Assembly: GCF_016028255.1 (NCBI RefSeq)
Contig: NZ_CP065707.1
Coordinates: forward strand, 434,001 to 498,000
From: Streptococcus oralis
GTDB lineage: Bacteria > Bacillota > Bacilli > Lactobacillales > Streptococcaceae
Direction of reading: 5' to 3'
DNA length: 64,000 nucleotides
Each line of letters begins with the position of its first letter. Positions within the stretch are counted from its first letter, which is position 1. Both the position numbers and the translations under genes were made by a program. Shown here in pieces: positions 30,473-47,200 of this stretch. The notes beneath the pieces were generated by a model. That model saw only the letters and a list, made by a program, of their open reading frames with translations. It was not told the DNA's origin and ran no database searches.

Positions 30473-30544
30473 TCCGTGACAAATCCTCTTAAAAATGATA
30501 AGATAGGAGAAATATTTGATGATCAAATTTTTAAGGGGGAAATC

Positions 30545-31039
30545 GTGTCATATTTTGAACAGTTTATGCAAGCCAATCAGGCTTATGTTGCCCTTCATGG
30601 GAAATTAAATCTGCCACTTAAGCCGAAAACAAGAGTAGCAATTGTGACCTGTATGGACTCACGGCTACACGTCGCGCAAGCTCTGGGTCTGGCACTTGGA
30701 GATGCCCATATCTTGCGGAATGCGGGTGGTCGAGTAACAGAGGACATGATTCGTTCACTTGTGATTTCCCAGCAACAAATGGGAACTAGAGAAATTGTGG
30801 TGCTTCATCATACAGACTGTGGAGCTCAAACCTTTCAAAATGAGTCTTTTCAAGAGCATTTGAAGCACGAGCTCGGGGTTGATGTGTCTGGTAAAGATTT
30901 TTTACCATTCCAGGATGTTGAAGAGAGTGTGAGAGAGGATATGCAGTTGCTTCGAGAATCTCCACTGATTCCTGATGATGTGGTTATTTCAGGTGCTGTT
31001 TACGATGTGGATACAGGGAGTATGAGAGAAGTATACTAA
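30545..31039 (+). CDS. Beta-class carbonic anhydrase
   Basis: This 164-residue zinc enzyme interconverts CO2 and bicarbonate. Zinc ligands are visible in TCMDSRLH (Cys, plus the Asp-Arg dyad) and LHHTDCGAQ (His and Cys). GTG 30545 gives the normal N-terminus (SYFEQFMQANQAYVALHG) and follows AAGGGGG. The frame is open further upstream but without support. It lies between radA and prs as in pneumococcus. Confidence 0.92.
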   Translation: MSYFEQFMQANQAYVALHGKLNLPLKPKTRVAIVTCMDSRLHVAQALGLALGDAHILRNAGGRVTEDMIRSLVISQQQMGTREIVVLHHTDCGAQTFQNESFQEHLKHELGVDVSGKDFLPFQDVEESVREDMQLLRESPLIPDDVVISGAVYDVDTGSMREVY

Positions 31040-31167
31040 CTTTGTCTCAAAAAATCTCATCCTAGCATAAAATCGATTGTTAAAATGTAGGGTTTTTAGT
31101 TTCAATATAGCTAATATAAAATAGCATAAAGCAAGGGTATAAATGTTTGCTCTTGTTTTATTTTTGA

Positions 31168-31196
31168 TTGAAAAATAAAGGAAAAAGCGCTACAAT
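31168..31196 (+). promoter_or_regulatory. Promoter of prs
   Basis: TTGAAA (31168-31173) and TACAAT (31191-31196) are separated by 17 bases, 57 bases before the prs start. Confidence 0.6.
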
Positions 31197-31252
31197 GGTA
31201 GATGGAAAATGTTGTGTAAAAAACAAGTGATACATAAATACCGGAGGAAATC

Positions 31253-32221
31253 ATGTCTTTTTCTGATTTAAAGCTGTTTGCCCTTTCTTCTAATAGAGAA
31301 TTGGCAGAGCGTGTGGCGCAAGAGATTGGGATAGAGTTGGGGAAATCAAGTGTTCGCCAATTTTCAGATGGGGAGATTCAGGTCAATATCGAAGAATCAA
31401 TCCGTGGAAAACACGTCTTTATCCTACAATCAACTAGCTCACCTGTAAATGACAATCTGCTCGAAATTTTGATCATGGTAGATGCCTTGAAGCGTGCTAG
31501 TGCAGAATCTGTCAACGTTGTCATGCCTTACTATGGCTATGCACGTCAGGATAGAAAAGCAAGAGCGCGTGAGCCAATCACTTCAAAACTCGTTGCAAAC
31601 ATGCTGGAAGTGGCTGGAGTAGATCGTTTGTTAACGATTGATTTGCATGCTGCACAGATTCAGGGATTCTTTGATATTCCTGTAGATCACTTGATGGGTG
31701 CTCCATTGATTGCGGACTATTTTGAACGTCGTGGCATGGTTGGCTCTGACTATGTCGTTGTCAGTCCAGACCATGGCGGGGTGACTCGTGCTCGTAAATT
31801 GGCAGAGTTTTTGAAAACTCCGATTGCGATCATTGACAAGCGTCGTAGTGTAGACAAGATGAACACCAGCGAAGTGATGAACATCATTGGTAAGGTAGAA
31901 GGTAAGACTTGTATCTTGATTGACGATATGATCGATACAGCTGGAACCATTTGCCATGCGGCAGATGCTCTTGCTGAAGCAGGTGCGGTTGAAGTTTACG
32001 CAAGCTGTACTCACCCAGTTCTTTCAGGACCAGCTATGGACAATATCCAAAAATCAGCTATTAAGAAATTGGTTGTTTTGGATACTATCTACCTACCAGA
32101 AGAGCGTTTGATTGATAAGATTGAACAAATTTCGATTGCTCATCTTCTAGGCGATGCTATTATCCGTATCCACGAAAAACGTCCTCTTTCTCCTTTGTTT
32201 AGCATTGAGAAAAAGATTTAA
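31253..32221 (+). CDS. prs: Ribose-phosphate pyrophosphokinase
   Basis: This 322-residue enzyme makes PRPP from ribose 5-phosphate and ATP, feeding the purine pathway encoded later in the window. Diagnostic segments are [27 protein letters not shown], the metal/catalytic region [13 protein letters not shown] and the PRPP loop [14 protein letters not shown]. The ribosome site is CGGAGG. It is monocistronic, with a promoter upstream and a strong terminator downstream. Confidence 0.96.
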
Positions 32222-32243
32222 TCTTTCACTTGAAATAGATAGT

Positions 32244-32280
32244 TCTCCTAGCAGGTTTCTTTTCTTGCTAGGAGATTTTT
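32244..32280 (+). terminator. Terminator after prs
   Basis: TCTCCTAGCA (32244-32253) pairs perfectly with TGCTAGGAGA (32266-32275), followed by TTTTT. Confidence 0.9.
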
Positions 32281-32340
32281 ATAGTCAAAATCTGCAAGCC
32301 TTTTCAAAATATGCTATACTGATGAAAAAGGAGGATTTCT

Positions 32341-32778
32341 ATGAGTCAAGAATTTATCAATCCAAGTGATGGTGTGATTCGTCAGTATCTGACAACTAGT
32401 AAAACGTTAGCGGTAGTGGGTTTGTCTGACCGTGAAGAAACAACTAGCAATCGAGTGACTAAGGAAATGCAGGCTCGGGGTTATAAAATCATCCCAGTCA
32501 ATCCCAAGGCGGCAGGTGGTGAAATCTTGGGTGAGAAGGCTTATGCTAGTCTAGCAGAGATTCCTTTTCCTGTAGATATTGTCAATGTTTACCGTCGCAG
32601 TGAGTTTTTGCCTGATGTGGCGCGTGATTTTCTCAAGGCTGATGCAAAGATTTTTTGGGCGCAGCTGGGACTCGAAAGTTTAGAAGCGGAAGAAATCTTG
32701 CGTGCTGGAGGATGCGACAACATCGTCATGAATCGTTGCATCAAGAGAGAACATACACGCTTGATTGAGGAAGTATAA
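32341..32778 (+). CDS. CoA-binding domain protein (YccU-like)
   Basis: This 145-residue Rossmann-like protein has TLAVVGLSDREETTSNRVTKEMQARGYKIIPVNPKA and VDIVNVYRRSEFLPDVA, the pattern of the succinyl-CoA synthetase-like CoA-binding family. The biological role is unknown. AGGAGG precedes the start, and an extended -10 (TGCTATACT at 32312-32320) lies 20 bases upstream. Confidence 0.85.
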   Translation: MSQEFINPSDGVIRQYLTTSKTLAVVGLSDREETTSNRVTKEMQARGYKIIPVNPKAAGGEILGEKAYASLAEIPFPVDIVNVYRRSEFLPDVARDFLKADAKIFWAQLGLESLEAEEILRAGGCDNIVMNRCIKREHTRLIEEV

Positions 32779-32779
32779 G

Positions 32780-32806
32780 AAAAGGTAGCTGGTGGGCTAC
32801 CTTTTG
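32780..32806 (+). terminator. Terminator after the CoA-binding protein
   Basis: AAAAGGTAGC (32780-32789) pairs with GCTACCTTTT (32796-32805). Confidence 0.8.
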
Positions 32807-32809
32807 TGT

Positions 32810-32955
32810 TATACTCAATGAAAATCAAAGAGCAAACTAGCTGCAGGCTGCTCAAAACACAGTTTTGAGGTTGTGGATAGAACTGACGAAGTCAGTAACA
32901 ATACCTACGGCAAGGCGACGTTGACGTGGTTTGAAGAGATTTTCGAAGAGTATTA
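32810..32955 (+). repeat. BOX repeat element
   Basis: The element starts TATACTCAATGAAAATCAAA and ends TTTTCGAAGAGTATTAG, the two characteristic ends of pneumococcal BOX elements. The internal CTACGGCAAGGCGACGTTGA segment matches the classical BOXA1R typing sequence with one difference visible. Such elements are mitis-group specific. It overlaps the yeiH stop codon. Confidence 0.9.
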
Positions 32956-33963
32956 GAAAATGCCGATAAGGGTCTGCATACCAAGACTGGTGAGGATGAT
33001 GGCAATCCAGCAGATGGCTCCAAGAAGAATGGATTTTCCACTGGATTTGACCATAGCGACCAGATTGGTTTTGAGACCGATAGCACTCATGGCCATGACA
33101 ATAAGGAATTTAGAGAGTTGTTTGAGAGGGGTAAAGAAACTACTGGACACACCTAGAGAGGTGAGTAGTGTAGTGAGGAGAGAGGCAAGGATAAAGTAAA
33201 GGATAAAAAGTGGGAAGACTTTTTTCAGTTGTAGGCTTTGCTTGTTTTCTTGTTGGCGACTTTGCCAGTAGGATAGAAAGAGCGTGATAGGGATAATGGC
33301 CAAAGTACGTGTGAGTTTAACAATGGTTGCAGACTCGAGGGTATTGCTTTGGTAAAGACTGTCCCAAGCGCTGGCGGCAGCCGTTACAGAGGAAGTGTCG
33401 TTGACCGCAGTCCCTGCAAAGAGGGCGAAGCCTTCATTGGATAGATGAAGCCAGGTTCCTAGAGTTGGAAAGATGAGCGCAGCCAAGACATTGAAGAAAA
33501 AGATAACGGAAATGGCTTGGGCTACTTCCTTTTCCTTAGCATCAATAACGGGCGCTGTCGCTGCAATGGCAGAGCCACCACAGATAGAAGAACCTACTCC
33601 AACCAAGGTAGCCAGTTTTGTATCCAGTGCAAAGAAGCGCTGGAAGAAATAGGCAATAATCAGAGCTATTGAGATGGTGGACAGGATGACAGGGAGTGAA
33701 GATTGTCCGACTGCGAAGACTTGCGAGATATTGAGACCAAAACCAAGCAAGACAACGGCATATTGGAGCAATTTTTTAGAACTAAAGGTCAATCCAGCAT
33801 CCAGTTGTTTATAAGACGAGAGAAAGGGATGTAGGAGCATGCCTATGAAAATCGCAAATACAGGCGCGCCAATCACAGGGAAGAATCCTCCTAAGTACCA
33901 AGATACGATAGAAATGAGAAGGCAGGCAAAGATGCCTGCTCCATTTTTTGATAGAAATGACAT
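32953..33963 (-). CDS. YeiH-family putative sulfate exporter
   Basis: This 336-residue membrane protein has about ten hydrophobic segments and family blocks such as [53 protein letters not shown] and [15 protein letters not shown] 33963 is chosen because GGAGG lies six bases upstream on the minus strand; a TTG further upstream overlaps that site. The substrate in streptococci is unproven. Its stop codon lies at the edge of the BOX element. Confidence 0.88.
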
Positions 33964-34052
33964 AAAAACCTCCAAATAGAATCTGTTACTATTATAGACC
34001 TATAAACAGGAAAAGTAAAATAGAAAGTGGAAAGTTATTCTATCATGTATTT

Positions 34053-34081
34053 TTGCGGTCGGGGGGCTTTTATAGTATAAT
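34053..34081 (+). promoter_or_regulatory. Promoter of the araT-recO-plsX-acp operon
   Basis: TTGCGG (34053-34058) and TATAAT (34076-34081) are separated by 17 bases, 30 bases before the aminotransferase start. Confidence 0.7.
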
Positions 34082-34111
34082 AGAGATACGTTTTGAAAGT
34101 AGGAGGTATCT

Positions 34112-35281
34112 ATGGACTTAACCAAGCGCTTTAATAAACAATTAGACAAGATTCAAGTTTCCTTGATTCGTCAGTTTGACCAGGCTATTTCGGAGATTCC
34201 TGGGGTCTTGCGTTTGACCTTGGGGGAACCTGATTTTACAACGCCAGACCATGTCAAGGAGGCGGCCAAGCGAGCGATTGACCAGAACCAATCCTACTAT
34301 ACAGGGATGAGTGGTCTGTTGACTTTACGTCAGGCAGCCAGTGACTTTGTTAAGGAAAAGTACCAACTGGACTATGCTCCTGAAAATGAAATCTTGGTTA
34401 CAATTGGGGCGACAGAGGCTTTATCTGCTACTTTGACGGCTATTTTGGAAGAGGGGGACAAGGTGCTCTTGCCAGCTCCTGCCTATCCAGGATATGAGCC
34501 GATTGTCAATCTAGTTGGGGCAGAGATTGTCGAGATTGATACAACTGAAAATGGTTTTGTCTTGACTCCTGAGATGTTGGAAAAGGCCATTTTGGAGCAA
34601 GGGGACAAGCTCAAAGCAGTTATTCTCAACTATCCAGCCAATCCGACAGGAATTACCTATAGTCGGGAGCAGTTGGAAGCCTTGGCAGACGTTTTACGCA
34701 AGTACGAGATTTTTGTTGTCTGTGATGAGGTTTACTCAGAATTAACCTATACAGGGGAAGCCCATGTATCTTTGGGAACTATGCTGAGAGACCAGGCTAT
34801 TATTATCAATGGTTTATCTAAGTCTCATGCTATGACAGGTTGGCGTTTAGGCCTTATCTTTGCTCCTGCAGCCTTTACGACTCAGTTAATCAAGAGTCAC
34901 CAGTACTTGGTAACTGCCGCAAATACTATGGCGCAACATGCTGCGGTAGAAGCTTTGACGGCGGGTAAAAACGACGCGGAGCCTATGAAGAAGGAGTACA
35001 TCCAGCGTCGTGATTATATTATCGAGAAAATGACTGCTCTTGGTTTTGAGATTATTAAACCAGACGGTGCCTTCTATATCTTTGCTAAGATTCCTGCTGG
35101 CTACAATCAAGATTCCTTTGCTTTTCTGAAGGATTTTGCTCAGAAGAAGGCTGTTGCCTTTATCCCTGGTGCCGCCTTTGGACGCTACGGAGAAGGCTAT
35201 GTTCGCCTATCTTATGCAGCTAGCATGGAGACTATCAAAGAAGCCATGAAACGACTTGAGGAGTACATGAGAGAAGCATGA
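34112..35281 (+). CDS. araT: PLP-dependent class I aminotransferase (aromatic-type)
   Basis: This 389-residue enzyme has the fold type I signature: [11 protein letters not shown] at the N-terminus, [24 protein letters not shown] and the PLP lysine in [15 protein letters not shown]. Position before recO matches the pneumococcal aromatic aminotransferase AraT, so I use that name with reservation; aspartate or other substrates are possible. AGGAGG precedes the start. The stop overlaps recO. Confidence 0.82.
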
Positions 35282-36048
35282 TTCAGTCTATCACGAGTCA
35301 AGGCTTGGTGCTCTACAATCGTAATTTTCGTGAGGACGACAAGTTAGTCAAGATTTTTACCGAGCAGGCTGGCAAGCGCATGTTTTTCGTCAAACACGCT
35401 GGTCAGTCCAAACTAGCTCCGGTTATTCAGCCCTTGGTGTTGGCGCGATTTCTCTTACGAATCAATGATGATGGGCTCAGCTATATCGAGGACTACCATG
35501 AGGTGATGACCTTTCCTAAGATTAATAGTGATCTCTTTGTCATGGCTTATGCGACCTATGTTGCTGCTCTTGCAGATGCTAGTTTGCAGGATAACCAGCA
35601 GGATGCTCCCTTGTTTGCTTTTTTGCAAAAGACTTTGGAGTTGATGGAAGAGGGTTTGGATTATCAGGTTTTGACCAATATTTTTGAAATTCAAATCTTG
35701 ACCCGATTTGGGATTAGCCTTAATTTTAATGAGTGTATCTTTTGCCATCGGGTTGGTCAGGCCTTTGACTTTTCTTTTAAATATGGAGCCTGCCTCTGTC
35801 CAGAGCATTATCATGAGGATGAGAGACGTTGCCATCTGAATCCCAATATCCCTTATCTTCTCAATCAATTTCAAGCCATTGATTTTGAGACCTTGGAGAC
35901 CATTTCGCTCAAGCCTGAAATCAAGCAAGACTTGCGCAAGTTTATAGATCAAATCTACGAAGAGTATGTTGGAATTCACCTAAAATCAAAGAAATTCATT
36001 GATTCCCTGGCAGACTGGGGACAATTACTAAAAGAGGAAGACAAATGA
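35278..36048 (+). CDS. recO: DNA repair protein RecO
   Basis: This 256-residue recombination mediator has an N-terminal OB-fold ([28 protein letters not shown]) and a helical C-terminal domain with a zinc-type cysteine cluster (CIFCH, then CLCPEH). With RecR it loads RecA on SSB-coated DNA. It overlaps araT by four bases and plsX by four bases, so it is translated from the same transcript. Confidence 0.93.
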
Positions 36049-37037
36049 AAAAAATTGCAGTAGATGCTATGGGGGGCGATTACGCACCTCAAGCCATCGT
36101 TGAGGGTGTCAACCAAGCCCTTGCTGACTTTTCAGATATTGAGATTCAACTCTACGGAGATGAAAGCAAGATCAAGCAATATCTAACAGCGACAGAGCGT
36201 GTCAGCGTTATTCATACGGATGAGAAAATTGACTCAGACGATGAGCCGACAAAAGCTATTCGTAAGAAGAAAAATGCCAGCATGGTATTAGCGGCCAAGG
36301 CTGTCAAAGAGGGGGAAGCAGACGCTGTCCTCTCAGCTGGGAACACAGGTGCCTTGTTGGCTGCAGGATTCTTCATTGTGGGTCGTATCAAAAATATCGA
36401 TCGTCCAGGACTCATGTCTACCTTGCCGACCATTGATGGCAAAGGGTTTGATATGCTAGATCTCGGTGCCAATGCGGAAAATACAGCCCATCATCTGCAC
36501 CAATACGCTGTCCTAGGTTCCTTCTATGCGAAAAATGTTCGTGGGATTTCGAAACCGCGTATTGGTTTGCTCAACAATGGAACAGAAAGCAGCAAGGGAG
36601 ATCCGCTTCGTAAGGAAACATACGACTTGCTAGTAGCTGATGAAAGTTTGAACTTTGTCGGAAACGTGGAAGCGCGTGATCTGATGAATGGCGTTGCGGA
36701 TGTTGTCGTAACAGATGGTTTCACGGGAAACGCTGTTCTCAAATCCATCGAAGGTACAGCTTTGGGAATCATGGGCTTACTTAAAAATGCTATTACGGGT
36801 GGTGGTCTTCGAGCGAAGCTAGGTGCTCTACTTCTCAAAGATAGCCTCAAAGGTTTGAAAAAGCAGCTTAACTATTCAGATGTTGGAGGGGCAGTCTTGT
36901 TTGGTGTCAAGGCGCCAGTTGTAAAGACTCATGGTTCCAGTGATGCCAAGGCTGTGTACAGTACGATTCGTCAGATTCGTACCATGCTCGAAACAGACGT
37001 AGTTGCTCAGACTGCGCGTGAATTTTCAGGAGAATAA
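36045..37037 (+). CDS. plsX: Phosphate acyltransferase PlsX
   Basis: This 330-residue enzyme converts acyl-ACP to acyl-phosphate for phospholipid synthesis. It has the family start [20 protein letters not shown], then [12 protein letters not shown] and [17 protein letters not shown]. The downstream acyl carrier protein gene is a logical partner. The start overlaps recO. Confidence 0.95.
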
Positions 37038-37041
37038 AAAG

Positions 37042-37278
37042 ATGACAGAAAAAGAAATTTTTGACCGTGTTGTAACCATTATCCAAGAGCGACAGGGAGA
37101 AGACTTTGTCGTGACGGAGGCTTTGAGTTTGAAAGACGACCTAGATGCAGACTCAGTAGACTTGATGGAGTTCGTCCTAACGCTAGAAGATGAATTTGGT
37201 ATTGAGATCAGCGATGAGGAAATTGACCAACTTCAAAGTGTGGCAGATGTGGTCGGAACTATTAAAGGTAAGATATAG
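37042..37278 (+). CDS. Acyl carrier protein (second copy type)
   Basis: This 78-residue ACP has the phosphopantetheine attachment serine in DADSVDLMEF. The ATG at 37042 lies four bases after the plsX stop. The main fatty-acid ACP is usually encoded in the fab cluster, so this is likely the second ACP linked to PlsX. A strong terminator follows. Confidence 0.92.
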   Translation: MTEKEIFDRVVTIIQERQGEDFVVTEALSLKDDLDADSVDLMEFVLTLEDEFGIEISDEEIDQLQSVADVVGTIKGKI

Positions 37279-37280
37279 CA

Positions 37281-37311
37281 AAAAACAACATGCAAGTCAT
37301 GTTGTTTTTTT
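37281..37311 (+). terminator. Terminator of the araT-acp operon
   Basis: AAAAACAACATG (37281-37292) pairs with CATGTTGTTTTT (37298-37309), followed by more T. It separates the operon from the small-peptide cassette. Confidence 0.9.
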
Positions 37312-37394
37312 GTTTGCAGGAAAAAGGAAAAATTTGAAACATTTTTGTAGAAATTGCGAATATAGAGATGAGACAGAAAAAAGGAGGAACGTTT

Positions 37395-37445
37395 ATGTAT
37401 GTGACCGGTTTTTATCCATGGTTCATTAAGTGGTTTTTAAAATAA
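37395..37445 (+). CDS. 16-residue Trp-rich peptide, copy 1
   Basis: The frame encodes MYVTGFYPWFIKWFLK, preceded by AAAGGAGGAACG at an ideal distance. The second half (PWFIKWFLK) is amphipathic, aromatic and cationic. There is no leader or signal peptide. A paralogue follows 123 bases downstream. It may be a leaderless bacteriocin, a membrane-active toxin or a short pheromone. The conserved peptide with diverged DNA favours a real gene. Confidence 0.6.
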   Translation: MYVTGFYPWFIKWFLK

Positions 37446-37517
37446 AAATGAAACAGTTGTTCATTTTCGAATTATTTTTCGAATAGATAGGTAAGGAAAA
37501 AGGAAGGAGACTACACG

Positions 37518-37568
37518 ATGTATTTGCCAATCTTATTGCCATGGTTTATCAAATGGTATTTAAAATAA
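37518..37568 (+). CDS. 16-residue Trp-rich peptide, copy 2
   Basis: The frame encodes MYLPILLPWFIKWYLK, with GGAAGGAG in front. It shares PWFIKW-LK and length with copy 1, while many third codon positions differ (for example TTC-ATT-AAG versus TTT-ATC-AAA), which suggests selection on the peptide. The function is unknown. Confidence 0.6.
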   Translation: MYLPILLPWFIKWYLK

Positions 37569-37636
37569 ATGAAATTTACCTGTTCATTTTAGATCACTTC
37601 TCGAATAGATAAGTGATAAGAACAGGAAGGAAAAAG

Positions 37637-37684
37637 ATTTCAGTAATTTATCCAATCTAGTTTTTAAAATGGTTTAAAGCCTAG
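37637..37684 (+). pseudogene. Decayed third copy of the Trp-rich peptide
   Basis: At the matching place of the third unit the frame reads (ATT)-SVIYPI, a TAG, then FLKWFKA and a second stop. The ATG has become ATT, and one codon in the middle is a stop. The similarity to YP-FIKWFLK marks it as a dead paralogue. Confidence 0.55.
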
Positions 37685-37723
37685 AAACTGTAAACTAAAA
37701 AAATAAAAATAAAGGAGAAAAAG

Positions 37724-37867
37724 ATGACAAATTTTGACAAAATGGAACAAAACTTTGTAGCTCTTACAGAAGAAGAGTTGACGGATGTGGATGGGGGTTC
37801 TGTTACTGCTGTGGTAGTAGGAGGCATCTTACTTATTGGCGGTATTGCTTGGGGATACTTTATGTGA
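37724..37867 (+). CDS. Double-glycine leader peptide (bacteriocin-like) 1
   Basis: This 47-residue peptide has the leader FVALTEEELTDVDGG, matching the LSxxELxxIxGG pattern cut by C39 exporters such as ComA. The mature part of about 22 residues is hydrophobic and glycine-rich (SVTAVVVGGILLIGGIAWGY), like two-component class IIb peptides. AAAGGAG precedes the start. The exporter genes comAB lie 2 kb downstream. Confidence 0.8.
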   Translation: MTNFDKMEQNFVALTEEELTDVDGGSVTAVVVGGILLIGGIAWGYFM

Positions 37868-37882
37868 TAATAGGAGGATAAA

Positions 37883-38041
37883 ATGAATATGAATAATTTA
37901 AATAATTGGACAGAGTTGACAGAAGACGAATTGATGAATACTGATGGAGGCGTGATCACAATAGCTACTATTGGTATTGGAGTGACTATTTTCCTTGGCG
38001 GTAGATTAATCGGGCAAGATTTAAAGCGTAGGTTTGGATAA
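37883..38041 (+). CDS. Double-glycine leader peptide (bacteriocin-like) 2
   Basis: This 52-residue peptide has leader WTELTEDELMNTDGG and a mature part with GxxxG-type spacing and a basic tail (VITIATIGIGVTIFLGG, then RLIGQDLKRRFG). It follows peptide 1 after 15 bases with AGGAGG. Pairing with peptide 1 as a two-peptide bacteriocin is plausible. Confidence 0.8.
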   Translation: MNMNNLNNWTELTEDELMNTDGGVITIATIGIGVTIFLGGRLIGQDLKRRFG

Positions 38042-38054
38042 AAAGTGATTAGGT

Positions 38055-38231
38055 ATGAAAAATCGAAAAAATTTAATAGGCGTGCTTTTAATCAGTTTTG
38101 GAGCACTCTGCGTTCTAGGTGATTTAAATGTAATTACCTTTAAAGTTGATCAGTATGTAGGCTCGGAATTATGGATTCCGATCCTTATTTTAATGATGAG
38201 TTATTTGGATTCAGGCAAAAACAAGGTTTAA
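38055..38231 (+). CDS. Small membrane protein, probable immunity protein
   Basis: This 58-residue protein has two membrane segments (about residues 7-23 and 37-51) and a charged tail (YLDSGKNKV). Position directly behind two bacteriocin-like peptides suggests an immunity role. The ribosome site is weak (TTAGGT). Confidence 0.55.
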   Translation: MKNRKNLIGVLLISFGALCVLGDLNVITFKVDQYVGSELWIPILILMMSYLDSGKNKV

Positions 38232-38310
38232 AGAGAACTATTGTTAGTGTGTGGCAAATACTATTGAATAGTCATCTTTTAGTTACTACCAATAAAAAAT
38301 GGAGAAATAA

Positions 38311-38409
38311 ATGAAGATTTCAGAAGAATTTTCAGTAATTATTATATCAGCTTCAGGAATAGTAGGGCTTTTGGTTGGAGTAGCTATTGGATTAGCCAGT
38401 ATTATTTAA
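38311..38409 (+). CDS. Tiny membrane peptide
   Basis: This 32-residue peptide (MKISEEFSVIIISASGIVGL, then LVGVAIGLASII) has one long hydrophobic stretch with small-residue spacing and no double glycine before it. GGAG lies ten bases upstream. It may be a leaderless bacteriocin or a remnant of a double-glycine peptide. Confidence 0.45.
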   Translation: MKISEEFSVIIISASGIVGLLVGVAIGLASII

Positions 38410-38424
38410 AAAGGAGAGAGAAAA

Positions 38425-38580
38425 ATGAAAAAACTGGATGAAAAATTTGACATCATGACAGAAGCAGACTTATCTGTTACTGAGGGAGGCTTCATTGTTA
38501 CTACTTCCACAGCAATAGCTTGGGGTGTATTAGGAGTAGCTTCTTATATGTATGGGCGTTATCTAGGAAGTAGACGCTAA
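38425..38580 (+). CDS. Double-glycine leader peptide (bacteriocin-like) 3
   Basis: This 51-residue peptide has leader FDIMTEADLSVTEGG and mature part FIVTTSTAIAWGVLGVASYM, then YGRYLGSRR: hydrophobic with a basic end. AAGGAGAG precedes the start. It probably pairs with one of the neighbouring peptides. Confidence 0.75.
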   Translation: MKKLDEKFDIMTEADLSVTEGGFIVTTSTAIAWGVLGVASYMYGRYLGSRR

Positions 38581-38618
38581 GCTAAAAATTTGGGATAAAG
38601 TATGTAAGGAAATCAATT

Positions 38619-38831
38619 ATGAATCACAACCTTAATCTCAATACATTGTTACCTAAACTAGCCACTATAGTTCCTTTGTTGGCAATAGCTCTTAATCTCG
38701 CGCTCCATGTGATTCGTACAGGTTCATTAGTATCCTTTGATTGGCAATGGACTTTAGTTGGCTTGCTTGCTTCGAGCTATTTTGGTATTTTTTGCAAAGA
38801 TTTGTCAAAAGATAATTTAAACTATAAATGA
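38619..38831 (+). CDS. Small membrane protein, probable immunity protein
   Basis: This 70-residue protein has two membrane segments (about residues 9-31 and 43-58) and a C-terminal KDLSKDNLNYK tail. It follows peptide 3 and overlaps the next tiny gene in an ATGA, indicating coupled translation. No family is recognised. Confidence 0.6.
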   Translation: MNHNLNLNTLLPKLATIVPLLAIALNLALHVIRTGSLVSFDWQWTLVGLLASSYFGIFCKDLSKDNLNYK

Positions 38832-38902
38832 AGAATATGAACCAAAAGGATTTTGTGCATGTGAATGGCGGAGTTTTTCCGCCTTTCTTATCAGGTAAAT
38901 AG
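38828..38902 (+). CDS. Minimal double-glycine peptide with nine-residue cargo
   Basis: The 24-residue frame has a leader ending KDFVHVNGG followed by the cargo VFPPFLSGK. The start overlaps the upstream stop in an ATGA, which favours coupled translation. The cargo is too short for a pore-forming bacteriocin but in the range of secreted signalling peptides. It could also be a truncated bacteriocin, so function is uncertain. Confidence 0.5.
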   Translation: MKNMNQKDFVHVNGGVFPPFLSGK

Positions 38903-38911
38903 GAGTCTACC

Positions 38912-39091
38912 ATGAAACAATTCTTATTAGGATTTGCTGAGGGGTATTTTATCGTATCGCTCATTATCTACATCGCCACGTATTTGATTTTGAAAAATCC
39001 GATCAATACCTTGTTTTATCCAGAAACCTATCCGATTCTGCTGGGGTTGTTTTATGTAGGATATAAGGTTAATAAAAAGCAAGTAGAGTGA
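38912..39091 (+). CDS. Small membrane protein, probable immunity protein
   Basis: This 59-residue protein has two membrane segments (about residues 12-26 and 40-51) and a basic tail (KVNKKQVE). It follows the minimal double-glycine peptide after nine bases, with AGGAG upstream. An immunity function is inferred from position only. Confidence 0.55.
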   Translation: MKQFLLGFAEGYFIVSLIIYIATYLILKNPINTLFYPETYPILLGLFYVGYKVNKKQVE

Positions 39092-39489
39092 GAGATTAAG
39101 AATGACTTATTATTCTGCGCTAAAAATGGGTAAGGTAAGATTTAAGAATGCATCACATTGGAGTTTAAAAAAATCGTAATTTAGAACGGTGTTATCTATT
39201 CTGACTAGGAATAGATCATACCAGAGGTGGCTTAGAAATAGTAGGGACATTAGAAATTGTAGTAATAAATAGGATGTCGTAAATGTTACTATCAATGATT
39301 TATTTGTTCCAAGCTTGCCCAGGGTGACAGTAAAAAGTCAATTTCCTTTTATACCATATTTTTAGTAGGTAGGACACTTGTTCTGCCTATTTTCTTTAGC
39401 AAAAAGTGCCAGTTGAGGTGTTTATTTGGAGTTTTACATGTATTTTTTGATAAAATAGGTATAGAAATTAGGAAAGTTGGAGAAAAGAA
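39092..39489. other. Intergenic stretch with terminator and competence-type promoter remnant
   Basis: No convincing gene is seen; one 25-codon frame at about 39101 is probably a remnant. AGGTAG (39367-39372) and CTGCCT (39383-39388) form a small terminator followed by ATTTTCTTT. GTGCCAGTTGAG at 39406-39417 resembles one half of a ComE box, and TAAAAT at 39451-39456 could be a -10. The segment 39365-39420 is a near copy of 39693-39748. Confidence 0.5.
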
Positions 39490-39684
39490 ATGAAGAAGGT
39501 TTTAGGCTATTGTTTAGTATTTGTTTTTCTATTTTTAATGAATATTCTCATCTTTACGATACTAGCAACTCTTGGATTTCAGGTGACAATGAGTGAAAGT
39601 AGTTATCTGGTACCCCCTGTGTTTTCGTTTATCGTTTTATATACCATTCATAAAAGAGGTGGGAAAGGTAAGAAATCTGTGTAA
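39490..39684 (+). CDS. Small membrane protein of unknown function
   Basis: This 64-residue protein has two membrane segments (about residues 4-29 and 42-54) and a strongly basic end (HKRGGKGKKSV). It lies alone between two copies of a terminator/ComE-box-like module, directly before comA. It may be an immunity protein. The ribosome site is GGAGAAAAG. Confidence 0.6.
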   Translation: MKKVLGYCLVFVFLFLMNILIFTILATLGFQVTMSESSYLVPPVFSFIVLYTIHKRGGKGKKSV

Positions 39685-39695
39685 TTGAATGATCT

Positions 39696-39725
39696 AGGCA
39701 GGACTCTTGTTCTGCCTATTTTCTT
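39696..39725 (+). terminator. Terminator upstream of comA
   Basis: AGGCAG (39696-39701) pairs with CTGCCT (39712-39717), followed by ATTTTCTTT. It is the second copy of the hairpin at 39367. Confidence 0.6.
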
Positions 39726-39736
39726 TGACAAAAAGT

Positions 39737-39803
39737 GCTGTTCAGGTATGAATATTGTTTTTTCAGAAATAATTTTCCGATTTCTTCTTCGTTTGGTTAA
39801 AAT
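39737..39803 (+). promoter_or_regulatory. ComE-dependent promoter of comAB
   Basis: The imperfect direct repeat GCTGTTCAG (39737-39745) and TTTTTTCAG (39758-39766) has exactly 12 bases between arms, the known ComE binding layout. TAAAAT at 39798-39803 fits as -10, placing the second arm around -43. Competence pheromone signalling should therefore induce comAB. Confidence 0.75.
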
Positions 39804-39849
39804 AATCTTACAAAGTTTTTAAGAGATTGTTAGAAAAAAGGAGATGGAT

Positions 39850-42003
39850 ATGAAATTTGGGAAAAAACACTATCGTCCTCAGGTGGATCAGATGGATTGC
39901 GGCGTGGCTTCCTTGGCTATGATATTTAGCTACTACGGTAGTTATTACTCCTTGGCTCATCTACGAGAGTTGGCCAAGACGACCATGGATGGGACGACTG
40001 CTTTGGGGCTTGTAAAGGTGGCAGAGGAGCTTGGCTTTGAGACGCGGGCTATCAAGGCGGATATGACGCTCTTTGATCTGCCTGATTTGACTTTTCCTTT
40101 TGTAGCCCATGTGCTCAAGGAAGGGAAATTGCTCCACTACTATGTGGTGACAGGTCAGGATAAGAAGACCATCCATATCGCTGATCCAGATCCTGGTGTC
40201 AAGCTGACCAAGATTTCCCGTGAGCGATTTGCGCAAGAGTGGACAGGGGTCAGTCTCTTTATGGCGCCATCTCCAGACTATAAACCTCATAAGGAGAAAA
40301 AACAGGGGCTCCTATCCTTCTTGCCCATCTTATTCAAACAGCGTGGCTTAATTACCAATATCGTACTAGCGACACTCTTGGTAACCCTGATTAACATTGT
40401 GGGTTCTTATTATCTGCAGTCTATCATTGATACCTATGTGCCAGATCAGATGCGTTCGACGCTGGGTATCATCTCTATTGGTTTGGTCATCGTCTATATC
40501 CTCCAGCAAATTTTGTCCTACGCGCAGGAGTATCTCTTACTTGTTTTGGGGCAACGTCTGTCAATTGATGTGATTTTATCCTACATCAAGCATGTTTTTC
40601 ACCTGCCAATGTCCTTTTTTGCGACACGCAGGACAGGGGAAATCGTGTCTCGTTTCACGGATGCTAACAGTATCATTGACGCGCTAGCGTCGACCATTTT
40701 ATCTATCTTTTTGGATGTGTCGACGATTCTGATTATTTCGCTTGTCTTGTTTTCACAAAATATGACACTCTTTTTCATTAGTCTACTTGCGCTTCCCATC
40801 TATACAGTGATTATCTTTGCCTTTATGAAGCCTTTTGAAAAGATGAATCGGGACACTATGGAAGCCAATGCGGTTCTGTCTTCTTCTATCATCGAGGACA
40901 TCAATGGTATTGAGACCATTAAGTCTTTGACCAGTGAAAGTTCACGCTATCAAAAGATTGACAAGGAATTTGTAGCTTATCTGAAAAAATCCTTTACCTA
41001 TAGTCGAGCAGAAAGTCAACAAAAGGCTCTTAAAAAGCTTGCTCAGCTTCTGCTCAATGTTGCTGTTCTCTGGATGGGAGCTGTTCTTGTCATGGATGGC
41101 AAGATGAGCTTGGGTCAGCTGATTACCTATAGCACCCTGCTTGTTTACTTTACCAATCCTTTGGAAAATATCATCAACCTACAAACCAAACTTCAGACAG
41201 CGCAGGTTGCCAATAATCGCTTAAATGAGGTTTATCTAGTGGCTTCGGAGTTTGAGGAGAAGAAAACGGTAGAAGATTTGAGTATGATGAAGGGGGATAT
41301 GACCCTTAAACAAGTTCACTATAAGTATGGCTATGGTCGTGATGTCTTGTCGGATATCAATTTGACGATCCCACAAGATTCTAAAGTGGCTTTCGTGGGA
41401 ATTTCAGGATCAGGCAAGACAACTTTGGCCAAGATGATGGTTAATTTTTACGATCCAAGTCAGGGAGAGATTAGTCTGGGTGGTGTCAATCTTAATCAGA
41501 TTGATAAAAAGGCCCTGCGCCAGTACATCAACTATCTGCCTCAACAGCCCTATGTCTTTAACGGAACGATTTTGGAGAATCTTCTCCTTGGAGCCAAGGA
41601 GGGGACGACTCAGGAAGATATCTTACGGGCTGTTGAATTGGCCGAGATTCGGGAGGATATCGAGAGGATGCCACTGAATTACCAGACAGAATTAACTTCG
41701 GATGGGGCAGGGATTTCTGGTGGGCAACGGCAACGAATCGCTCTGGCGCGTGCTCTCTTGACAGATGCGCCTGTCTTGATATTGGATGAGGCGACCAGCA
41801 GTCTGGATATCTTGACAGAGAAGCGGATTGTGGATAATCTCATGGCTTTAGACAAGACCTTGATTTTCATCGCCCACCGCTTGACCATCGCTGAGCGGAC
41901 AGAGAAGGTTGTTGTCTTGGATCAGGGTAAGATTGTCGAAGAAGGCAATCATGCTGATTTGCTTGCTCGAGGTGGATTTTACGCCCATTTGGTGAATAGC
42001 TAG
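39850..42003 (+). CDS. comA: Competence peptide exporter, C39 peptidase ABC transporter ComA
   Basis: This 717-residue protein has an N-terminal C39 peptidase with C17 (VDQMDCGVAS), H96 (LLHYYVVTG) and D112 (HIADPDPG), a six-helix membrane domain, and an ATPase with Walker A GISGSGKTT, signature SGGQRQR and Walker B VLILDEATSSLD. ATG 39850 is six bases from AAGGAG; the ATG at 39844 touches that site. It cleaves double-glycine leaders and exports ComC and related bacteriocins. Confidence 0.95.
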   Translation: MKFGKKHYRPQVDQMDCGVASLAMIFSYYGSYYSLAHLRELAKTTMDGTTALGLVKVAEELGFETRAIKADMTLFDLPDLTFPFVAHVLKEGKLLHYYVVTGQDKKTIHIADPDPGVKLTKISRERFAQEWTGVSLFMAPSPDYKPHKEKKQGLLSFLPILFKQRGLITNIVLATLLVTLINIVGSYYLQSIIDTYVPDQMRSTLGIISIGLVIVYILQQILSYAQEYLLLVLGQRLSIDVILSYIKHVFHLPMSFFATRRTGEIVSRFTDANSIIDALASTILSIFLDVSTILIISLVLFSQNMTLFFISLLALPIYTVIIFAFMKPFEKMNRDTMEANAVLSSSIIEDINGIETIKSLTSESSRYQKIDKEFVAYLKKSFTYSRAESQQKALKKLAQLLLNVAVLWMGAVLVMDGKMSLGQLITYSTLLVYFTNPLENIINLQTKLQTAQVANNRLNEVYLVASEFEEKKTVEDLSMMKGDMTLKQVHYKYGYGRDVLSDINLTIPQDSKVAFVGISGSGKTTLAKMMVNFYDPSQGEISLGGVNLNQIDKKALRQYINYLPQQPYVFNGTILENLLLGAKEGTTQEDILRAVELAEIREDIERMPLNYQTELTSDGAGISGGQRQRIALARALLTDAPVLILDEATSSLDILTEKRIVDNLMALDKTLIFIAHRLTIAERTEKVVVLDQGKIVEEGNHADLLARGGFYAHLVNS

Positions 42004-42015
42004 AAAGAGGAGAAG

Positions 42016-43365
42016 ATGCAACCAGAATTTTTAGAAAGTGCGGAGTTTTACAATCGTCGTTACCATAATTTTTCCAGTCGGGTGATTTTACCTATGTCGC
42101 TCCTACTCGTGTTTTTACTGGGATTTGCAGTTTTTGCAGAGAAGGAGATTAGTTTATCTACCAGAGCAACTGTCGAACCTAGTCGGATTATTGCCAACAT
42201 CCAGTCGACTAGCAATCAACGCATCGTGGCCAATTATCTAGAAGAAAACAAACTAGTCAAGCAGGGGGATCTCCTCGTTCAGTACCAGCAAGGGGCGGAA
42301 GCTGTTCAAGCTGAAGCATACGCCAATCAGTTGGAGATGTTTAAGGATCAAAAAAAACAGTTAGGTTATTTGCAATCCAGTTTGAAAGAGGGGAGTGATC
42401 AATTTCCAGAGGCAGATAAGTTTGGTTATCAGGAGATGTTTCGAGACTATCTCAGCCAAGCGAATAGTCTGAGGAGTAATGTTTCTCAGCAAAATGCCAG
42501 CATCTCCTCACAGAATGCGGCAGCAAGTCAGAGTCAGTCCGAGATTGGCAATCTTATCAGACAAACACAGGATAAAATTCGAGATTACAAAACAGCTAAG
42601 TCAGCGATTGAAAAGGGAGATCAACTGGATAGTCAGAATCCAGCCTACTCTTTTTACCAGACCTATAAAAACCAAGCTGGAGAAGATCCGCAAGCTAAAT
42701 CGCAAGTTATTGCACAGGTGGATGCTCAAATTGCCCAGCTAGAGTCTAGTTTAGCTACTTATCGTGTACAGTATGCGGGATCTGGAGCTCAACAAGCCTA
42801 CGCAAGTGGACTGGATAGTCAGCTTGAATCCCTTAAGTCCCAGCACCTAGTCAAAGTCGGTCAGGAATTAACCCTTTTGGATCAGAAAATTTTAGAAGCG
42901 GAGTCGGGTAAGAAAGTCCAAGGAGGTCTCCTAGATAAGGGGAAGATTACAGCAAGCGAGGATGGGGTACTTCACCTTAATCCTGAGACCAGTGATTCTA
43001 CCATGGTTGCAGAAGGAACCCTGCTAGCCCAACTCTACCCGGCCTTGGAACGAGAAAGAAAAACCAAACTCACAGCTTATCTCAGTTCAAAAGATGTTGC
43101 AAGACTTAAGGTAGGTGATTCTATCCGTTTTACTACAAACAAGGATGCCAACAAAGAGCTCGTTCTTGTTTCTGCGATTACGAATATTGATGCGACAGCT
43201 ACCAAGACTGAAAAGGGAAATTTCTTTAAAATAGAGGCAGAGACAAGTCTGGCTCCTGAACAGGCAGAAAAACTTCGCTACGGTTCAGAAGGACGTTTGA
43301 CACTAATCACAGGAAAGAAAAGTTATCTGCGATATTACTTAGATCAATTTTTGAACAGAGAATAA
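42016..43365 (+). CDS. comB: Competence export accessory protein ComB
   Basis: This 449-residue HlyD-like adaptor has one N-terminal membrane anchor (about residues 24-43), a long coiled coil rich in Gln, Ser and Ala (about 90-300), and a C-terminal beta domain ending [15 protein letters not shown]. It works with ComA and is cotranscribed 12 bases downstream. Confidence 0.95.
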
Positions 43366-43395
43366 TGTTTGTTTTTAACGCGATATTATACTTTT

Positions 43396-43429
43396 AAAAC
43401 TGTAAAATGTTTTGATTTTACAGTTTTTC
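43396..43429 (+). terminator. Terminator after comAB
   Basis: AAAACTGTAAAAT (43396-43408) pairs perfectly with ATTTTACAGTTTT (43415-43427). Confidence 0.9.
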
Positions 43430-43471
43430 TTAATATTAAAAAGAGGTATCTTAGCCGTCGTTCGCAAATTC

Positions 43472-43500
43472 TTGCTATTTTCGTTATTTTGTAGTAGAAT
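43472..43500 (+). promoter_or_regulatory. Promoter of the pur cluster
   Basis: TTGCTA (43472-43477) and TAGAAT (43495-43500) have a 17-base spacer. CGTTCG just upstream (43459-43464) and GGCGAAC downstream (43520-43526) resemble the CGAAC core of PurR boxes and may be regulatory, but this is tentative. Confidence 0.6.
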
Positions 43501-43532
43501 GAAGTAAAGAAATACGAAAGGCGAACTTTAAA

Positions 43533-44240
43533 ATGTCAAAAGAATTGATCTATTCGGGAAAAGCCAAGGATATCTATACAACTGAGGATGAAAATCTTAT
43601 TATTTCAACTTACAAGGATCAGGCAACTGCCTTCAACGGTGTCAAGAAGGAGCAGATTGCGGGCAAGGGAGTCTTGAATAATCAGATTTCATCTTTTATT
43701 TTTGAAAAGTTAAATGCTGCTGGTGTGGCGACTCACTTTGTGGAGAAACTTTCGGATACGGAACAACTCAATAAAAAGGTTGAGATTATTCCTCTAGAAG
43801 TTGTGCTCCGCAACTACACGGCTGGATCCTTTTCAAAACGTTTTGGCGTTGATGAGGGTATCGCATTTGAGACTCCGATTGTCGAATTTTACTATAAAAA
43901 TGATGATTTGGATGATCCGTTTATCAATGATGAGCATGTGAAATTCCTAAAGATTGCAGATGACCAGCAGATTGCTTACTTGAAAGAAGAAACCCGTCGT
44001 ATCAATGAACTTTTGAAGGCTTGGTTTGCTGAGATTGGGCTTAAATTGATTGACTTTAAGCTAGAGTTCGGTTTTGACAAGGATGGTAAGATTATCTTGG
44101 CAGACGAATTTTCACCAGATAACTGCCGTTTGTGGGATGCGGATGGCAACCACATGGACAAAGATGTTTTCCGTAGAGGTCTCGGAGAATTGACAGATGT
44201 TTATGAGATTGTCTGGGAAAAGTTGCAGGGATTGAAATAA
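43533..44240 (+). CDS. purC: SAICAR synthase
   Basis: This 235-residue enzyme joins CAIR and aspartate. Typical segments are [41 protein letters not shown] and [14 protein letters not shown]. It is the first gene of the purine cluster. A degenerate copy of its 3' end follows in the gap before purL. Confidence 0.96.
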
Positions 44241-44250
44241 CAACCTAGAA

Positions 44251-44282
44251 GTCGTTTGGGAATATTGCAAGAGCTGAAATAA
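44251..44282 (+). repeat. Degenerate copy of the purC 3' end
   Basis: The 32 bases starting GTCGTTTGGGAATATTGC align with the last bases of purC (about 44209-44240) at roughly three quarters identity, including the ending TGAAATAA. It appears to be a diverged purC tail left behind by duplication or recombination. Confidence 0.5.
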
Positions 44283-44296
44283 AGGAATAAGAATTG

Positions 44297-47200
44297 ATGG
44301 ATAAACGTATTTTTGTTGAAAAAAAGGCCGATTTTCAAGTTAAGTCAGAAAGTTTGGTAAGGGAGCTCCAGCATAACTTGGGACTTTCAACTTTGAAAAG
44401 TATTCGCATTGTGCAAGTTTATGATGTCTTTGATTTGGCAGAGGACTTGTTTGCGCCTGCAGAGAAACACATCTTCTCTGAGCAGGTGACCGACCATGTA
44501 TTGGACGAAGCGGCTGTGCAAGCGGATCTTGCTAACTATGCTTTCTTTGCCATTGAAAGCCTGCCAGGGCAGTTTGACCAACGTGCAGCTTCTTCACAGG
44601 AAGCCTTGCTTTTGCTGGGAAGTTCGAGTGATGTGACGGTCAATACAGCCCAACTTTATCTGGTCAATAAAGATATTGATGCGACTGAGTTGGAAGCGGT
44701 CAAGAACTACTTGCTCAACCCAGTTGATTCTCGTTTCAAGGACATCACGACAGGGATTGCCAAGCAGGAATTTTCAGAGTCAGACAAGACTATTCCAAAA
44801 TTGACTTTCTTTGAAAGTTATACGGCAGAAGACTTTGCTCGCTACAAGGCCAAGCAAGGGATGGCCATGGAAGTGGATGATTTGCTCTTTATCCAAGACT
44901 ACTTCAAGTCAATCGGGCGCGTGCCGACAGAAACAGAGCTCAAGGTTTTGGACACTTATTGGTCTGACCACTGTCGTCACACAACTTTCGAGACGGAGTT
45001 GAAGAATATCGACTTCTCAGCTTCTAAATTCCAAAAACAATTGCAAGCGACTTATGACAAGTATATCGCCATGCGTGATGAGTTGGGACGTACGGATAAA
45101 CCTCAGACCTTGATGGATATGGCGACTATTTTTGGTCGTTATGAGCGTGCTAACGGTCGTTTGGATGACATGGAAGTGTCTGATGAAATCAATGCCTGCT
45201 CTGTTGAAATTGAAGTGGATGTCAATGGTGTCAAAGAACCATGGCTTCTCATGTTCAAAAACGAAACTCACAACCACCCAACGGAAATTGAACCATTTGG
45301 TGGAGCGGCTACTTGTATCGGTGGTGCCATTCGTGACCCATTGTCAGGTCGCTCATACGTTTACCAAGCCATGCGTATTTCAGGTGCTGGCGATATTACA
45401 GCTCCAATTTCAGAAACTCGCGCTGGTAAATTACCACAACAAGTCATTTCTAAAACAGCGGCTCACGGTTATTCTTCTTATGGGAATCAGATTGGTCTTG
45501 CGACGACTTACGTTCGTGAATACTTCCACCCAGGATTTGTAGCCAAACGCATGGAGCTTGGTGCCGTTGTTGGTGCAGCTCCTAAGGGCAACGTTGTCCG
45601 TGAAAAACCGGAAGCGGGCGATGTGATTATTCTTCTTGGTGGTAAGACTGGCCGTGATGGTGTCGGTGGTGCGACAGGGTCTTCTAAAGTTCAAACGGTT
45701 GAGTCTGTGGAGACTGCTGGTGCTGAGGTTCAAAAAGGAAATGCCATAGAAGAACGCAAGATTCAACGTCTGTTCCGTAATGGCGATGTCACTCGTCTCA
45801 TCAAGAAATCCAATGACTTTGGTGCTGGTGGTGTCTGTGTAGCCATCGGTGAATTGGCAGACGGTCTTGAAATCGACCTCAACAAGGTTCCTCTTAAATA
45901 CCAAGGTTTGAACGGTACAGAAATTGCCATCTCTGAATCACAAGAACGGATGGCGGTCGTGGTTCGTCCTGAGGACGTAGATGCCTTCGTTGCAGAATGT
46001 AATAAAGAAAATATTGATGCTGTTGTGGTCGCGACAGTGACTGAAAAACCAAATCTAGTCATGCACTGGAATGGTGAAACCATCGTCAACTTGGAACGTC
46101 GTTTCCTTGATACCAATGGTGTGCGTGTCGTTGTCGATGCCAAGGTCGTGGACAAGGATGTCAAGCTTCCAGAAGAGCGCAAGACAAGTGTTGAAACCCT
46201 TGAAGCAGATACCCTTTCAGTTCTATCTGACCTTAACCATACCAGTCAAAAAGGCTTGCAGACCATCTTTGATAGTTCAGTTGGTCGTTCAACTGTCAAT
46301 CACCCGCTTGGTGGTCGCTATCAACTCACACCAACTGAGGCATCTGTGCAGAAATTGCCAGTTCAACACGGTGTGACTCATACTGCGTCTGTCATGGCGC
46401 AAGGCTTTAACCCTTATCTAGCAGAATGGTCTCCATACCACGGTGCTGCCTATGCAGTTATCGAAGCGACTGCTCGTCTAGTAGCGGCAGGTGCCAACTG
46501 GTCTAAGGCTCGTTTCTCTTACCAAGAGTATTTTGAGCGGATGGACAAGCAAGCTGAGCGTTTTGGTCAGCCAGTAGCAGCCCTTCTAGGCTCTATTGAA
46601 GCACAAATTCAGCTTGGCTTGCCATCTATCGGTGGTAAAGACTCTATGTCTGGTACCTTTGAAGAATTGACGGTACCACCAACCTTGGTTGCCTTTGGGG
46701 TGACAACAGCAGATAGCCGTAAAGTCCTTTCTCCTGAGTTCAAGACTGCTGGTGAAAACATCTACTACATTCCAGGTCAAGCCCTCTCCGCAGAGATTGA
46801 TTTTGACTTGATTAAGTCTAACTTTGCTCAATTTGAAGCCATCCAAGCTGACCACAAAGTAACATCTGCATCAGCTGTTAAATATGGTGGTGTCCTTGAA
46901 AGCTTGGCTCTTGCTACCTTTGGGAACCATATCGGTGCAGAGGTTATCTTGTCTGAACTTGAAAGTTCTTTGACAGCTCAATTGGGTGGATTTGTCTTCA
47001 CCTCTCCTCAAGAAATCGCTGGAGTAGAGAAGATTGGACAAACAAGTGCAGACTTTACACTCCTTGTCAACGGTGTGAAGTTAGATGGACAGAAACTTGA
47101 CAGTGCCTTTCAAGGGAGACTGGAAGAAGTTTACCCAACGGAATTTGCCCAAGCTAAAGAATTGGACGAAGTTCCAGCTGTCGCTTCTACCGCAGTCATC

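Follow-up and report, generated by a model that had tools for sequence, protein, structure and literature searches.

The interval between acpP (ending at 37278) and comA (starting at 39844) carries two intact ORFs of only 16 codons and a broken third one. The question raised by this locus is whether such short repeated frames are genes and, if so, what their products do. The genome, from a Streptococcus of the mitis group, is one contig of 2,024,323 bases, and "the window" refers to the whole stretch of 64,000 nucleotides that was analysed. According to the original prediction, two frames with near-perfect ribosome sites lie in repeat units of about 120 bp, and a third unit carries a dead copy. 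All of this could be reproduced: coordinates and sequences of both frames were recovered, a strong Shine-Dalgarno sequence precedes ORF A as well as ORF B, the coding repeat (75% identity between A and B over 52 nt) recurs at a spacing of 123 nt, and the third copy is indeed dead (Table 1). What had been overlooked is that each unit contains a SigX-type box and that the locus has been published as cab.

Table 1. Coordinates of the array and of neighbouring features in the window.
Feature	Position	Strand	Remarks
acpP, upstream border of cab locus	37042..37278	+	ORF listed from an upstream TTG, ATG at 37042; bait of the survey
SigX-type box, unit A (CGAATA 37357-37362)	37341..37367	+	extended box, one mismatch to relaxed SigX motif; genome position 471341
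unit A peptide gene, MYVTGFYPWFIKWFLK	37395..37445	+	16-codon ORF; type A intact in 41 units (101 loci)
SigX-type box, unit B (CGAATA 37480-37485)	37464..37490	+	extended box, exact match, one of 5 exact in genome
unit B peptide gene, MYLPILLPWFIKWYLK	37518..37568	+	16-codon ORF; type B intact in 39 units
SigX-type box, third unit (CGAATA 37602-37607)	37586..37614	+	23/29 versus motif; not recovered by the stricter genome scan (21 sites)
type C peptide gene remnant	37634..37684	+	without start codon, in-frame stop; type C intact in 45 units elsewhere
double-glycine bacteriocin-like peptide (cab type)	37724..37867	+	TIGR03949 class IIb bacteriocin above cut-off; PF10439 below cut-off
double-glycine bacteriocin-like peptide	37883..38041	+	TIGR03949 above cut-off
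double-glycine bacteriocin-like peptide	38425..38580	+	TIGR03949 below cut-off; GG motif in sequence
comA, peptide cleavage/export ABC transporter	39844..42003	+	TIGR01193 and Peptidase_C39
comB, export accessory protein	42016..43365	+	TIGR01000

SigX boxes and the published cab locus

In both intact units the hexamer CGAATA starts 38 nt upstream of the ATG and follows a T-rich stretch; the pneumococcal SigX (ComX) box has been given as TTTTTNHNNNYTHTTMCGAATADWNWRRD (PMC6560143). A scan of the array's own genome with a relaxed SigX motif, allowing at most one mismatch, returned 21 sites versus 6 for the reversed pattern. Behind other sites of the genome we find dut, comGA, cinA, comEA, radC, dprA, ssbB, and coiA, and a further site precedes a choline-binding CHAP hydrolase which resembles cbpD, its best model match being below the cut-off. 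The base before CGAATA is a T at dut, comGA, cinA, and coiA, as in unit B, and a G at a small unnamed ORF, as in unit A. This ORF, behind a SigX-type box (L082; G000:C1:217718-217744, minus strand), has 49 codons and no NCBIfam match, and is perhaps another late-competence gene. For nine of the 21 sites no late gene could be assigned, and these matches may be fortuitous.

The array is located in the published cab (competence-associated bacteriocin) locus, which extends from plsX-acpP to comAB. This placement is found here, and comA was detected downstream of acpP in 73 of 82 loci from the survey described below. Double-glycine (GG) bacteriocin genes are present as well, two of the three passing TIGR03949. 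The cab locus of S. mitis has the same place, GG bacteriocins, and SigX boxes (PMC6001120, PMC11921387, PMC13059744), and SigX has been shown to be needed for cab expression in S. mitis G22 and NCTC 12261 (PMC13059744, PMC6001120). Deletion of the unique SigX genes in two S. mitis strains left transformation unchanged (PMC6001120).

Two or three SigX boxes at cab were reported by Salvadori 2018 with no clear explanation given in the passage concerned (PMC6001120), while Borralho 2026 described up to 38 boxes and proposed that their accumulation enhances expression (PMC13059744). The passages of the cab papers that deal with the boxes treat them as repeated promoters and do not contain the peptide frames, whereas most of the boxes seen here head such frames. 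As the ORF scan of PMC13059744 covered ORFs of 100-300 nt with a GG motif, the unit frames of 48-51 nt lie outside it. Cab loci and a small-ORF search are also the subject of PMC11921387, and its text on these does not mention the peptides. Our own literature searches (titles, starts of abstracts, and passages, supplements aside) brought up no description of the 16-residue peptides, and the string PWFIKW was absent from the text searched, which agrees with the original prediction, where no earlier description was known. Locus, boxes, and bacteriocins are thus known already, but the peptide genes themselves were not found described in these searches.

Distribution and conservation of the peptide frames

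A core pattern of 27 nt was searched in 284 Streptococcus genomes, with the reversed pattern as control. It occurs exactly in 40 of the 284 genomes, versus none for the control; with three mismatches, 113 genomes match, and since the control also reaches 28 of 284 (tallied by hand), these matches are partly noise. In a species-representative collection all 21 core-bearing stretches are from Streptococcus, and spread outside this genus was not found there. Titled records with the core include S. mitis, S. oralis, S. infantis, S. pseudopneumoniae, and two labelled S. pneumoniae. The cab locus has been described as absent from S. pneumoniae (PMC13059744), yet units occur in L033 and L052, which are from records labelled as this species; the labels may be wrong. 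A phage origin was considered and rejected, with no exact match in viral contigs.

A motif-independent survey used acpP as bait, which matched in 164 of the 284 genomes. Loci of up to 16 kb were taken from 100 genomes and, together with the window, gave 101 loci; left out were mainly weak acpP matches, plus G166, G172, and G201, which are cut by contig ends. We drew a line, by falling acpP identity, between 82 closer and 19 more distant loci, and the nine of the 82 in which comA was not found were excluded from the 73 loci considered complete. A unit profile, trained on intact units so that badly decayed ones may escape it, detected 266 units in the 101 loci, 217 of them with an intact frame of 15-18 residues. 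At least one intact unit is present in 78 of the 82 closer loci versus none of the 19 distant ones, and in seven of the latter comA follows within 254-286 bp after acpP. Units are missing from four of the closer loci: L183, where a contig end cuts the locus, L173, L184, and L192. In L192 there is a bacteriocin-like gene together with a piece of a transposase, as has been reported for pneumococci at this locus (PMC6001120).

The 82 loci contain 262 box-like sites (scoring at least 23 of 29), of which 204 precede an intact unit peptide, 16 directly precede a GG gene, and 42 do neither. By hand count, 22 of these 42 are copies of one repeated element which lacks the T-tract and is probably not a promoter; once they are left out, an intact peptide frame is found behind 204 of 240 sites. 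The element itself, AATCTCCACACTCAAACGAATATTATAAAG, is present in 22 loci including L165 and L177 and passes as a SigX box by its score, and counts of SigX boxes by motif score may include it. Within each unit type the distance from box to ATG is almost constant. In L171, L175, L178, and L198 a SigX box with a C-type-like start leads into a different ORF (MIISVIQDLDETI...), which perhaps reflects recombination of a unit with a neighbouring gene.

The assignment of units to types A, B, M, D, and C relied on an ad hoc pattern; to be accepted, a frame had to fit a peptide pattern and encode 15-18 residues. Types A, B, M, and D contribute 68 unique coding sequences. With pairs of related copies pooled, among which recombination occurs, their in-frame dN/dS amounts to 0.17 (codon bootstrap 0.07-0.27), versus 1.10 and 1.53 for frames +1 and +2 of the same pooled DNA. 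Flanking windows reach 0.61-1.14 when pooled, while flank windows of single types are noisy (0.37-2.07). The ratio is 0.10 for type A (0.03-0.21), 0.15 for type M (0.01-0.64), 0.21 for type D (0.07-0.55), and 0.29 for 16-residue type C (0.10-0.72); for type B (0.26, 0.10-1.24) and 17-residue type C (0.42, 0.13-1.84) the interval spans 1. Codon positions 1, 2, and 3 carry 1.60, 1.64, and 1.05 bits, respectively, and divergence is 0.24 within the ORF versus 0.51 upstream and 0.44 downstream of it. Among non-C units, 172 are intact and three are broken, three further hits of unassigned type being cut by contig ends or N. Frames broken at random and lacking codon bias, which the original prediction had named as evidence against itself, are thus not what is observed. 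Because the in-frame ratio is so far below those of the two other frames, and because intact frames stand behind most boxes, it is very probable that the peptides are translated and under selection.

These data bear directly on the published interpretation, namely that several SigX boxes boost bacteriocin expression, so that the ORFs would be by-products. It is in line with the reduced signal of a cab-luc luciferase reporter when five boxes were cut to one (PMC13059744) and with the 16 boxes directly ahead of a GG gene. However, it predicts neither a low dN/dS in one frame with values of about 1 or more in the others nor the near-complete integrity of the non-C frames; it is strongly disfavoured by the codon evidence, and we consider it distinctly unlikely as the whole explanation of the units. 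Judged from sequence comparison, it is highly probable that the units represent translated, SigX-driven small genes, as the original prediction had suggested in describing real short genes without leader that head a bacteriocin cassette upstream of comAB.

Type C is often dispensable, as about 20 units are broken versus 45 intact ones. The former number results from 25 units scored as broken, minus L171, L175, L178, and L198, where the box precedes another ORF, and minus L197, where the frame is kept with a GTG start. A near-identical lesion is shared by nine or more of these about 20 units. The dead copy in our array is of type C, and an intact type C is present in G005, the nearest genome by acpP (97%).

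Units, bacteriocins, and the possible role of the peptides

The 34 distinct non-C 16-mers have K16 throughout, W9 in 33 cases, K12 in 30, and P8 in 27. The side-chain charge of the 217 intact units is +2 in 198 cases, 0 in 15, +3 in two, and +1 in two. Strong amphipathicity is not supported, as the eight C-terminal residues have an unremarkable helix moment (mean shuffle fraction 0.20). All 217 peptides taken together comprise 55 distinct sequences in four loose clusters, while 248 mature GG peptides comprise 128 distinct sequences in 38 clusters.

Both units and GG ORFs are present in 68 of the 73 complete loci. L205 and L207 each have one boxless type C unit next to a short bacteriocin-like remnant, L173 and L184 have neither units nor GG ORFs, and L192 has a GG gene only, so that co-loss of units and GG ORFs rests on few loci. 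The numbers of units and GG genes correlate with a Spearman coefficient of 0.39, but the loci are related. Some arrays are interrupted by GG gene cassettes; in L103 and L105, one locus contains more than one peptide array, with GG bacteriocin genes and small membrane ORFs forming cassettes in between, which gives the impression that units and cassettes have been shuffled together. When cassette ORFs were searched, no accepted family match was obtained beyond GG bacteriocins and ComAB, four other loci being read by eye only. In the window, two similar hairpins (39364-39391 and 39695-39718) with a common GTTCTGCCTA arm bracket a small ORF (39490-39684), close relatives of which persist even where the locus is almost empty (L184, L205, and L207).

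A conserved terminator in each unit (AAATGAA-N7-TTCATTTT after the stop codon) was considered and rejected: upon folding of the 3' flanks, types A and M have this hairpin as one of their strongest folds, types D and B form other structures, and nothing is found after type C. A known RNA element was rejected as well, the one Rfam match having an E-value of 4.8 and a score below the gathering score.

We favour a role of the peptides on the side of the producer. Each unit would be a small gene in which a frame of 16-17 codons follows a SigX promoter and a short untranslated leader that provides a strong ribosome site. The array would be transcribed in late competence, alongside the Cab double-glycine bacteriocins, and transcription probably also reads from unit to unit and on into the bacteriocin genes. 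Translation of the frames, to which the selection at the peptide level points, would yield short, hydrophobic, mostly +2 peptides without export signal, and these might insert from inside into the producer's own membrane. There they may serve the Cab system generally, for example by shielding the producer membrane, or by retaining or otherwise handling Cab peptides at the surface. This reading is preferred because the peptides are conserved beside variable and unrelated bacteriocins, because both are absent from emptied loci, because the peptides have no export signal, and because synthetic CabA and CabB are enough to kill (PMC13059744), so that the 16-mers are unneeded as killing partners in that assay. 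A general membrane helper, rather than a diversifying weapon, is therefore our leading candidate, though a tentative one that may well prove wrong.

The main rival is a leaderless multi-peptide bacteriocin or a toxin resembling phenol-soluble modulins, as the original prediction had proposed. The 16-mers would then be exported or released by lysis and, on their own or in concert with Cab peptides, permeabilise neighbouring cells. Several different tandem peptides per locus, the missing leader, the cationic and aromatic residues, and the bacteriocin setting all fit. Phenol-soluble modulins are likewise short leaderless tandem peptides overlooked by gene finders, but they are longer than 16-17 residues and have the Pmt exporter. 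Leaderless bacteriocins of three to four small cationic peptides encoded side by side, such as aureocin A70 and garvicin KS, are known, as are Trp-rich single-peptide ones (PMC6131525). However, the multi-peptide examples have 30-34 residues (PMC6131525), while all 217 intact frames encode 15-18 residues, a range that is also the selection criterion, and no dedicated transporter was recognised here. Purifying selection and low diversity also speak against a weapon, as does the failure of S. mitis G22 supernatants to inhibit pneumococci, whether cab was native or overexpressed (PMC13059744), the units of G22 lying outside our analysis. Membership in the leaderless bacteriocins thus fails on size and on conservation in place of diversification, and we regard a secreted toxin as rather unlikely. 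CibAB, too, is encoded by ComX-driven late-competence peptide genes, but it is a two-peptide bacteriocin, and the 16-mers have no GG leader (PMC6560143).

Three further explanations fit less well. If translation of the 16-mers controlled transcription or translation downstream in cis, a position close to bacteriocin genes would be in keeping with it, and where the last unit is of type C, no more than 140 nt separate it from a GG gene in 40 of 44 loci. Yet most units do not adjoin a bacteriocin gene, type B last units are within this distance in none of 17 cases, type C as the type nearest to the bacteriocins is most often broken, and no conserved hairpin follows it; such leader peptides are unlikely. 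A signal to the same or other cells, given by the whole peptide or its C-terminus in the manner of a pheromone or a modulator of competence, is suggested by XIP-type pheromones, which are also tiny, Trp-containing, and missed by annotation. XIP is a 7-residue double-Trp pheromone, and ComS/XIP and SHP share with the 16-mers the tiny streptococcal ORF, the presence of Trp, and the competence context. The 16-mers differ in their SigX promoter and basic C-terminus, several variants occur within one locus, and neither a receptor gene nearby nor an Rgg-like gene in the ORF list for 30000-46000 was recognised by eye, which makes this explanation very doubtful. The least probable is a self-acting toxin that pauses or opens the producing cell during competence, as in the type I toxin arrays Ibs and Ldr with their tandem tiny hydrophobic ORFs. 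The corresponding antisense toxin-antitoxin layout found no support in a simple consensus scan of the window, in which the opposite strand of the array showed no promoter-like site.

Implications for competence and predation

In common oral commensals, the units are probably a new component of the programme for competence and predation. Constructs in which the promoter region of the cab locus is cut back may delete peptide genes together with the boxes. It is conceivable, although we would not yet count on it, that the SigX boxes of cab are mostly gene copies and that a new family of 16-17-residue membrane peptides, with several kinds per cell, forms the constant helper arm of a hypervariable predation system. 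Such peptides may protect the producer from its Cab bacteriocins or hold these at its surface, which could help to explain the contact-dependent, surface-retained killing reported in 2026 (PMC13059744).
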